DNA of 52,559 nt from an uncultured Bacilli bacterium (GTDB lineage: Bacteria > Bacillota_I > Bacilli_A > RF39 > UBA660): the NCBI GenBank assembly GCA_944363785.1, contig CALVVF010000011.1:1-52559 (forward strand), in the 5' to 3' direction. This document shows, in pieces, positions 46,866 to 51,947 of this stretch; the first letter of the stretch is position 1; each line of letters begins with the position of its first letter. The notes under the pieces are model-generated. The model saw only the letters and a list, made by a program, of their open reading frames with translations. It ran no database searches and was not told the origin of the DNA. The translations under genes were made by a program, and so were the position numbers.

Positions 46866-46883
46866 TATTAGGTGATAAACAAT

Positions 46884-47411
46884 ATGAAAAAATTCTATCC
46901 TAATAACTGTTTTATAATTGGTCCAACCGGTCCAACTGGCCCAATAGGCATGACAGGTCCAACCGGCCCAACCGGACCAACGGGTTCGACAGGTCCGACA
47001 GGACCAGAAATAGATAATAATTATGCTACGTTTCAAAATCAAAGTACCGATATTACTTCTGGCACCTTAATTCCACTTTCTACTCAATTTAGTGGAGGAA
47101 GTCCAACCATTACCGTTAATGGCCAAACAATAACTTTACCTAGTCCTGGAACTTATTATGTTTCTTTTAGTTTAACAGGAAGGCTAGGACCAAATCAAAG
47201 TGGAACTATAATTCCTATTATTGGTGGAGTCATTCAAGATCGTTATACTACCATTAATAATACGAATAGTGTAAACAGCGATATCACAATAGAAGATGGC
47301 ATTCTAGTTCAAGCACCCACAGACACTACCGTCCAATTCTTTTACAGTGGAAGTGCCAATATGTCTAGGGCGAACTTCTTTGTGTCTGTGTTTAAAGTAT
47401 CAAACAAATAG
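46884..47411 (+). CDS. Collagen-like repeat surface protein (BclA-like)
   Basis: A 175-residue protein. A short N-terminus ([11 protein letters not shown]) is followed by 29 residues of Gly-X-Y triplets, mostly GPT, encoded at 46920-47006. The rest is a C-terminal beta-rich domain (about 45-175) like the C1q/TNF-like heads of spore-surface BclA proteins ([25 protein letters not shown]). It should form a trimer, with a Thr-rich collagen stalk that can be glycosylated. The typical location is exosporium or cell surface. ATG 46884 follows GGTGAT. Confidence 0.85.
46920..47006 (+). repeat. Gly-X-Thr collagen-like coding repeat
   Basis: An 87-bp run of 9-bp-related units encoding GPT with two variants (GPI-GMT, GST). 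Synonymous codons differ between units, so the array is not freshly expanded. Confidence 0.85.
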
Positions 47412-50076: not shown

Positions 50077-50111
50077 AAAAAAGATAGATAATTCAATATC
50101 TATCTCTTTTT
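50077..50111. terminator. Bidirectional terminator
   Basis: AAAAAGATAGATA pairs with TATCTATCTCTTTTT (one bulge) between convergent genes. Confidence 0.82.
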
Positions 50112-51173
50112 GACTAATGATTTATATAGAGGACTACCCAATTGATCCTTATCCATATTCTGCATATGTCCTTGATATTGGATAGTAGCTTCGCCTTCAG
50201 GAGTTAAATAATAAACCTGACAACATTTAATATCTTTAGTAAGTAAAATTGGCTTAACAGCTCTAATTCCCATGTGCCAATATCCTTGATAACCAATCGA
50301 ACCCATTCCTGCTGAACAGTGTACATGAAGACCATTTCTACCTAATGAACTTCTACCACTTACCATAGGAATCAAATGATATGTCTCGGTCCATTCATTG
50401 GTTCTTCCTAAATAGATTTCATCAGGATAAAGCCATATCCCTTCATCACCAATTTGAATCTTTTCAATTTTATTATCTTTTTTCATATCTAAGACAGGAT
50501 CAGTATAAATCCCAACCGTATCATGTAAAGTTAAGTTGACGGAATTAGGATTAATTAAAATTTTATCTTGAGGATTAATCAAAATATCTGGATTTTCTCC
50601 CTGCATTCTTTTTTTGATTTCCTCTCCACTTAACATTCCTGATGAATACAATCCACAAATCTTTTCTTCATTGATATTTCTTATCTCATTAGATTTTTCT
50701 AAACTAGGGAAGAAAGCTAAATTCGCAATTTTAATATCCGGATAAATAATGGTCGGTTTAGTAGCGATAATACTCAAAAATAAGTGGCCATCAAAATTAT
50801 CCGTTTTATAACCATTCGTTAACTCGATACTAACACCTAAAAGAGACAATGTCGCTTTACCGTTCAACACGGGAACAAACCCATGAGTAGTTACTCTTTC
50901 TATTGTTTTCGTCAAATATACCTTATGTGGCTGTAGAAGTAATCCTTCTTCTGGTATGACCACTTTTCTCAAGTTGGTAGTCTGATCATTTAATACTTCT
51001 TGTAAGTAATTATGGCTGTTTTTGGTATCGATAATATCATAGTCAAATACATATAGGGTATTTCCTAATCTTAAATCACAACTGTTTGGTTTATTTAAAG
51101 CATCTTCTTGTAAGTTTTCAATCACAATATTTCCTAGTTCTATCTGTTTTTTGATTTCCTTATTTGTTAACAT
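50100..51173 (-). CDS. Tandem dCTP deaminase/dUTPase-like protein (two domains)
   Basis: A 357-residue protein made of two dCTP-deaminase-like domains (about 1-175 and 177-350); both begin with a Glu/Lys helix and have the NP-N-S-x-L strand (CDLRLGNTLY, VNLTLHDTVG). Domain 2 keeps the triphosphate loop GRSSLGR (273-279) and GLHVHCSAGMGSIGYQG, but the catalytic Glu expected in TLE[IF] is Gly302. In domain 1 the matching residue is Ser134 and the loop is NGKATLS. So neither domain looks catalytic alone. It overlaps the single-domain gene by 14 nt and is probably its partner. Confidence 0.78.
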   Translation of the reverse strand: MLTNKEIKKQIELGNIVIENLQEDALNKPNSCDLRLGNTLYVFDYDIIDTKNSHNYLQEVLNDQTTNLRKVVIPEEGLLLQPHKVYLTKTIERVTTHGFVPVLNGKATLSLLGVSIELTNGYKTDNFDGHLFLSIIATKPTIIYPDIKIANLAFFPSLEKSNEIRNINEEKICGLYSSGMLSGEEIKKRMQGENPDILINPQDKILINPNSVNLTLHDTVGIYTDPVLDMKKDNKIEKIQIGDEGIWLYPDEIYLGRTNEWTETYHLIPMVSGRSSLGRNGLHVHCSAGMGSIGYQGYWHMGIRAVKPILLTKDIKCCQVYYLTPEGEATIQYQGHMQNMDKDQLGSPLYKSLVKKR

Positions 51174-51714
51174 CTGTTTTCACCAATACTTTCTGCTTTT
51201 GTTCATATTCCGTATAGAGTCTAGAAGCCGTTGGCTCCACTTGCCCAAAATATTTTCCTTTATATTCGATATTTCCATCTCCGATTAATGGATAGTAGTA
51301 AACTCGTCCAATTGGCATATTTTTATACACCCTAGTTGGATTATTACAAACGATTTCTAACGTCCAAGTACCTTCAAACCCATTATCACCAAAACCAGCA
51401 GTAACATGAATTTCCATCCCGATTGCCGCTAGTTCATCTGTTCCTGCTAAAAGAGGAACAAACCCATACGTTTTCGTAAATTCTAAAGTTCTCCCAATAT
51501 AAAGTTCATGTGGCTTTAAAATTAACCCTTCATCGGGAATCATAATCTCTTTTGTTGGTGTAGACTGAGTAAGACTTAAAAAAGGTGCGTCATATATCTT
51601 GACAGAATCCCCAAGTGTTACTTCAATAAAATTCTCCTCTAAGTGTTGTTCACTATTATCTACATATATACTTTTTCTCGTTAATTCTTCTTTAATTGCT
51701 TCCTTACTTAACAT
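51160..51714 (-). CDS. dCTP deaminase-like protein (single domain)
   Basis: A 184-residue protein with the dCTP deaminase fold. VTLGDSVKIYD matches the NP-strand. IHVTAGFGDNGFEGTWTLEI retains the catalytic Glu120 in TLEI. C-terminal EPTASRLY resembles the family end. The triphosphate-binding GRSSL.R loop is replaced by GTDELAAIG (91-99), so it should bind dCTP poorly alone. The start is ATG 51714 after AAGGAGGT; an upstream extension to 51741 is rejected. It precedes and overlaps the two-domain gene. It may deaminate, hydrolyse or merely sense nucleotides. Confidence 0.8.
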   Translation of the reverse strand: MLSKEAIKEELTRKSIYVDNSEQHLEENFIEVTLGDSVKIYDAPFLSLTQSTPTKEIMIPDEGLILKPHELYIGRTLEFTKTYGFVPLLAGTDELAAIGMEIHVTAGFGDNGFEGTWTLEIVCNNPTRVYKNMPIGRVYYYPLIGDGNIEYKGKYFGQVEPTASRLYTEYEQKQKVLVKTDVNK

Positions 51715-51947
51715 ATAGACCTCCTTCAAAAATTTTAACAAAAATCATATCAAATAACAATCAAAATTAAAGATTTTCTAATAGTTATCTCATCTTTTCA
51801 TAGAAAGATAAAAATTTAATATAAAACAAACTTTAATTAAATGAAAGAAAGGAAAATAGGAAAGTAGAAAATCCTTAGAAAAATAATGATTAACAGATAA
51901 TAGGAAAAGATAAAAAAGTAATTTTTTCATTTTCTTCTCCTTTTTTG
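51715..51947. other. Divergent intergenic region
   Basis: About 230 AT-rich bases between the dCTP-deaminase-like operon and the flavin reductase promoter. The minus-strand SD AAGGAGGT lies at its left end; I see no other feature. Confidence 0.4.

Follow-up and report, generated by a model that had tools for sequence, protein, structure and literature searches.

Two overlapping genes in the 52,559-nt stretch of DNA analyzed here (the window, from a small uncultured gut bacterium of the Bacilli) probably encode an obligate pseudo-heterotrimeric enzyme of the dCTP deaminase (DCD) type with one composite active site. The smaller gene, S, encodes a single DCD domain with the catalytic-Glu half of the site, and the gene D encodes two DCD domains, D1 and D2, of which only D2 carries the phosphate-loop half. 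The features of the pair are as follows:

51160-51714, minus strand: S gene, single DCD domain of 184 aa with the catalytic-Glu half (PF22769, 78.5 bits)
51714, minus strand: ATG start of S, with AGGAGG at 51720-51725 (from the ORF and the sequence)
51418-51444, minus strand: degenerate phosphate loop of S, GTDELAAIG, residues 91-99, R/S/S/G/R lost
51352-51411, minus strand: base-binding hairpin of S with Glu120, IHVTAGFGDNGFEGTWTLEI, residues 102-121, conservation 0.96
51241-51255, minus strand: C-terminal arm of S, Lys154-Gln158 (KYFGQ), kept in 15/15 S and 6/6 B1
51160-51173, minus strand: S/D overlap of 14 nt in the sequence, the D start codon lying inside the S end
50100-51173, minus strand: D gene, two DCD domains (D1 and D2), 357 aa
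50679-51173, minus strand: D1 domain, residues ~1-165, with neither catalytic half
50112-50636, minus strand: D2 domain, residues ~180-354, with the phosphate-loop half
50331-50357, minus strand: intact phosphate loop of D2, GRSSLGRNG, residues 273-281, R-S-S-x-G-R in 16/16 D2
50268-50270, minus strand: Gly302 of D2 at the catalytic-Glu position, Gly in 16/16 D2

Both proteins match the Pfam DCD model PF22769 well above its cut-off of 27 bits, D with 178.1 bits over two stretches. We observed no match of S or D to PF00692 (dUTPase family) at E ≤ 1 and none to PF00383, the CDA/dCMP deaminase fold; their fold is that of DCD instead. With the dCTP-deaminase equivalog TIGR02274 (cut-off 92.8) S scores 63.6 and stays below the cut-off, while D scores 126.5, again over two stretches, and lies above it. 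D is a likely annotation trap, as it passes this curated cut-off and yet the catalytic Glu is absent from both D1 and D2. The models of the two-domain DCDs, NF005734 (score 15, cut-off 283) and PF06559 (19.1, cut-off 21.4), both remained under their cut-offs. An overlap of similar size to that in the window is present in L019, L020 and further loci, the two genes otherwise nearly abutting in relatives, and we read it as a possible sign of translational coupling.

Complementary motifs in S and D2

We compared the motif residues of 15 S, 16 D1 and 16 D2 domains with those of 31 single-gene relatives and of six B1 and six B2 proteins, which are encoded by adjacent single-domain genes. The single-gene relatives retain essentially all residues of both halves, and the loop residues R/S/S/G/R are near-invariant among them. 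These are kept in all 16 D2 (GRSSLGR, residues 273-279 in the window) and lost in S, where one sequence retains a single loop Ser and the S of the window none of the five residues. D110, E120 (within TLEI) and K154, on the other hand, are present in 15 of 15 S and absent from 16 of 16 D2, and H103, A106, G112 and Q158 are likewise kept in every S. D1 has lost nearly all motif residues in the 16 sequences compared; in the window GKATLSLLG (residues 105-113) stands at the loop and LFLSI at the Glu site, so that neither half is left. This complementarity of S, D1 and D2 shows no exception, and both halves together in one domain were found in none of the 15 S, 16 D1 and 16 D2 compared. The original prediction had given Glu120 and a degenerate loop to S, the loop and Gly302 to D2 and neither to D1, and this reading proved correct residue by residue; the loop of S is indeed lost, but the word 'degenerate' understates the loss, as all five near-invariant residues are gone in the window. 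Judged by this residue pattern, by the low dN/dS of all three domains and by the adjacency of S and D in every locus found, the split of the motifs between S and D2 is not due to chance.

The pattern of conservation follows the same division. The mean column conservation of the S hairpin was 0.96 compared to 0.72 for the whole S domain, and the S loop, with 0.71, lies at the background of its domain, while the D2 loop reaches 0.94. Purifying selection acts on each of S, D1 and D2, the dN/dS values between close relatives being 0.03-0.15 across the three. For D1 alone the values are 0.06-0.15, from which we can infer that D1 is not a decaying remnant.

Natural fusions and the predicted ring

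S, D1 and D2 occur as one ORF in two genera, in L023 (553 aa) and in L047 (608 aa; 592 from ATG), and no methionine remains at the former D start in either of them. A Pfam search detects three DCD stretches in L047. These fusions bear on the possibility that S and D form separate homo-oligomers whose motif losses reflect independent degeneration. S and D can be expressed as separate chains, and standard DCDs of this fold are homotrimers (PMC4827122), but neither an S nor a D homo-oligomer would hold a complete site, and with the natural S-D1-D2 fusions, the constant adjacency of the two genes and the low dN/dS in every domain also standing against it we regard this explanation as very improbable.

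AlphaFold2 was applied to the fused relatives only, and D rows and S rows were used separately as input because S or D rows were misplaced when aligned together with the fused sequences. The model of fused L047 is compact with a pTM of 0.80, disorder being limited to the linker between S and D1 and to the final residues, and that of fused L023, obtained with a different alignment, is compact with a pTM of 0.66; both were computed from thin alignments and may echo the DCD trimer from training. D1-D2 of the L047 model superposed on the Agrobacterium two-domain DCD 2r9q_A with a Z score of 24.2 over 290 residues at 2.6 Å (second model: Z 20.1). The span from S to D2 superposed on the EBV dUTPase 2bsy with Z 11.0 over 198/249 residues (second model: Z 12.8), and in both models the aligned range starts in S and ends in D2.

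2r9q carries KSSTGR in its N-domain; its C-domain holds the hairpin and Glu, and the loop of this second domain is ruined. Together with the D1-D2 superposition this motif split points to D1 as the loop-side neighbour of the D2 hairpin. Along the chain of the EBV dUTPase motif III comes first and motif II follows (PMC12524310), as they do in S and D2, and this order, together with the S-to-D2 superposition, points to S as the hairpin donor to the D2 loop. Both comparisons thus lead to the same ring order, in which the D2 loop would face the S hairpin, a handedness that is taken only from the first and last residues of the superposition ranges. In the favoured order the conservation of the facing halves is 0.96 (S hairpin) and 0.94 (D2 loop), 0.68 (D1 hairpin) and 0.71 (S loop), and 0.90 (D2 hairpin) and 0.84 (D1 loop), whereas in the opposite order the facing values do not match, although with three values per order this comparison is weak by itself. 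The assembly and its handedness are predictions from models of the fused relatives.

The DCD/dUTPase enzymes are a textbook example of identical subunits that share their active sites. DCDs have a homotrimeric core with the active sites at the intersubunit clefts (PMC4827122), so that an S-D1-D2 ring can hold one whole site, and this in only one of two ring orders. In the two-gene form S and D would assemble 1:1 into a single ring of three DCD-fold domains, with the sole catalytic site between S and D2. S would give the base-binding hairpin, Glu120 as general acid/base and the Lys of the C-terminal arm, and D2 the GRSSLGR triphosphate loop. The interface of the S loop with the D1 hairpin would be dead, while that of the D1 loop with the D2 hairpin would be kept without a Glu, with a structural role or, at most, that of binding a ligand. 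The pseudo-trimer with a single composite site, which the original prediction had put forward, is strongly supported by the fusions L023 and L047, by the compact models, by S-D2 and D1-D2 packings that match solved pairs and by the constant linkage and complementary motifs of the relatives. It is possible, if rather doubtful, that the asymmetric trimer moreover splits catalysis at S/D2 from control, the conserved Glu-less pocket of D1 loop and D2 hairpin serving as a dedicated dNTP effector site; if true, this would be a heteromeric DCD whose regulatory site is separate from its catalytic one.

The homotrimeric DCD and DCD-DUT enzymes (TIGR02274; 1xs1 of E. coli, 1ogh of M. jannaschii, 2qxx of M. 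tuberculosis and 4xjc of B. halodurans) resemble S and D in fold, loop, hairpin and Glu, but they have one gene, three identical subunits and three sites, whereas in S/D the halves lie on different domains and no more than one whole site is possible. The two-domain DCD 2r9q (NF005734/PF06559; PRK07559) is alike in its D1-D2 packing and its motifs are also split within a duplicated protein; however, it is encoded by one gene, its N-domain having the loop together with a retained Glu and its C-domain the hairpin and Glu, whereas here the loop is in D2, the Glu on the separate protein S and neither of them in D1. The monomeric dUTPases of herpesviruses (EBV 2bsy, pseudorabies 8zwq) are a duplicated trimer fold with a single composite site between two domains, like S/D2 (PMC12524310), but they are dUTPases of one chain and two domains in which the third domain is absent. 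The three-domain dUTPase of Drosophila virilis and an engineered covalent human dUTPase form a pseudo-trimer of three fused domains, as S-D1-D2 does (PMC12524310, PMC4827122); unlike S-D1-D2, the Drosophila virilis enzyme has near-identical domains and three active sites. The principle of a single composite site is already known from the herpesviral dUTPase, and the motif split of the two-domain DCD suggests the same. In the open-licence literature searched we found no description of a bacterial counterpart that is encoded by two genes, has living intermediates and also occurs in nature as a three-domain fusion.

Chemistry and genomic setting

The complex most likely deaminates dCTP in a metal-independent reaction, the product being dUTP, or dUMP in the case of a bifunctional enzyme. 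Membership in the family and the thymidine kinase beside the whole single-gene relative L051, which comes from the same bacterial family, point to dNTP metabolism, and the retention of both catalytic halves argues for catalysis rather than sensing. A sensor, in which the three domains would bind dNTP and signal without chemistry as a catalytically dead regulator, had been named as an alternative from the start. It would fit the key residues missing from two of the three sites, the conservation of the D2 hairpin (0.90) despite the lost Glu and the dUTPase already present in the genome. However, the Glu, on which catalysis depends, is invariant in S and B1 and the partner loop in D2 and B2, a pairing that a sensor does not need, and there is neither a DNA-binding or effector domain nor a conserved neighbour. 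With both catalytic halves kept we consider the sensor the less likely reading, and an improbable one.

The same assembly might also perform other chemistry, either as a dUTP/dCTP diphosphatase or on a modified-nucleotide substrate. Bifunctional and dUTPase members exist in the DCD superfamily, and the S hairpin (HVTAGFGDNGFEGTWTLEI) appears to resemble the AG[FW] hairpins that the bifunctional enzymes of M. tuberculosis and M. jannaschii possess more than it does that of E. coli. This reading is nevertheless unlikely, as the deaminase-family hairpin and catalytic Glu are retained, PF00692 gave no match and the whole single-gene relative adjoins a thymidine kinase.

The genome of the window encodes a dUTPase and dCMP-deaminase-family proteins of its own, and none of ThyA, ThyX and thymidine kinase was found above the cut-off in this assembly, which is ~95% complete. 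Since a separate dUTPase is present, the product of S and D would not be the only source of dUMP. The enzyme may be an accessory source of dUMP or a drain of dCTP, which is consistent with its patchy occurrence.

Two side observations concern thymidylate synthesis. In the bacterial family of the window, ThyX (PF02511) is found as a tandem of two domains within a single frame of ~480-510 aa (G023:C11, G028:C10, G415:C13, G470:C24, G152:C5 and G259:C63), which makes it another enzyme with a shared site that has seemingly been fused to a pseudo-oligomer. Frames of 482-487 aa in G001:C1, G016:C35, G011:C11 and G012:C3 have only a partial match to the thymidylate-synthase (ThyA) domain. Elsewhere in the window, at 46872-47411 on the plus strand, we noticed that a collagen-like GPTGPTG repeat precedes a C-terminal domain which by eye resembles exosporium/BclA-type surface proteins.

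Distribution and evolutionary series

In whole-genome searches 6 of 98 relatives had DCD-like genes, as did 16 of 386 genomes of the family and 19 of 385 of the order; the three samples overlap, and several of the genomes counted have the pair or a single-gene type. The searched family comprises small-genome Bacilli, many of them gut MAGs, and extra loci were taken from a scan of genome contigs. S adjoins D in every locus found. In the survey of linkage that had been proposed at the outset, S and D of the relatives were thus always linked and their motifs complementary, and no unlinked or non-complementary relatives were found. The 15 loci of the three-domain type share no conserved neighbour beyond near relatives. 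This also applies to the amidoligase beside the pair, whose association with S and D the original prediction had raised: it is intact only in the window genome, broken into three pieces in the sister genome G001 (L019:14177-15560) and was not found in the other 15 same-genus genomes searched. We rejected it as a partner of S/D; being broken in G001, it is by its sequence a decaying or mobile passenger.

A phage origin of the pair was rejected as well, since matches in the phage collection were to single domains only, at 26-48%. A scan of viral contigs with the D profile matched two contigs, and the viral loci from the first scan showed no 1+2 system. On viral contigs we also observed DCDs in which an insertion separates the N-terminal segment from the remaining domain (L150, L161, L162 and L195), and in which the second matched stretch begins ~25-130 residues later.

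Nucleotide depletion is a known strategy of phage defence, and the dCTP deaminases employed in defence have a metal-dependent fold. Those characterized from phages are metal-dependent too, being related to AID/APOBEC and distinct from the metal-independent E. coli Dcd family (PMC12697855). S and D belong to the latter family and have another fold than these phage enzymes. The patchy distribution (16 of 386 family genomes) would suit an anti-phage module that depletes dCTP, but PADLOC returned no match when S, D, the fused protein and two neighbours in the window were searched, and a conserved neighbour is missing. The idea of a role in phage defence, part of the original prediction, is left unsupported and appears extremely improbable.

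The whole single-gene form, which has both halves, is widespread in Clostridia, Bacteroidota and other groups and occurs in the window's family too. B1 and B2 were found as adjacent genes in six loci, B1 being Glu-only and B2 loop-only in 6 of 6. B1 keeps the hairpin, Glu and Lys and has lost residues of the loop (GRFSLAALG), while B2 keeps GRSSIGR and has Gly, Ala, Gln or Asn at the Glu position. The genome CANPXU01 contains a 1+2 system and a B1/B2 pair on separate contigs (L059:8001-9603 and L068:8001-9064), so both forms can coexist. In the Da/Db pairs (L053, L054, L055 and L252) the loops are kept in both proteins and the Glu in Db only. Three of these diverged pairs (L053:6586-10650, L054:4611-8662 and L055:7198-9976) belong to a conserved cluster that also encodes a NUDIX/NrtR-like protein, a histidine phosphatase, an unknown protein and a radical SAM protein, the last with weak similarity to models of MoaA and viperin; Da has Gln for Glu and the Db hairpin reads APLGHVGCxHNWTLEL. 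The cluster possibly encodes a pathway to a nucleotide-derived product.

In two trees S, D1, D2, B1, B2, Da and Db each form one clade with a support of 98-100, and S, B1 and D1 group together with 99/92 and 99/95. When the motif columns were removed the S/B1/D1 grouping was unresolved, while the individual clades held, B2 falling to 91/87. An origin of D1 as a tandem copy of D2 was rejected on all columns (p-AU 0.015), but not without the motif columns (p 0.24). A derivation of D1 from the Glu-type lineage of S and B1 is only suggested by these sequences. A B1/B2 pair may have formed a 2:1 trimer, after which the Glu-type gene would have been copied and the copy fused to the loop-type gene, giving S and D1-D2. 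As the deeper grouping depends on the motif columns, this order of events is a proposal.

If the composite-site reading is true, the series would run from a homotrimer through a two-gene heterotrimer and the 1+2 form to a fused chain, and the origin of an obligate heteromer would be testable in living relatives. One bacterial family holds all the apparent stages, namely the whole single-gene form, the two-gene pair, the 1+2 pair and the three-domain fusion. How a symmetric homomer becomes an obligate asymmetric heteromer with fewer sites is a general question, which could here be tested with small soluble proteins.
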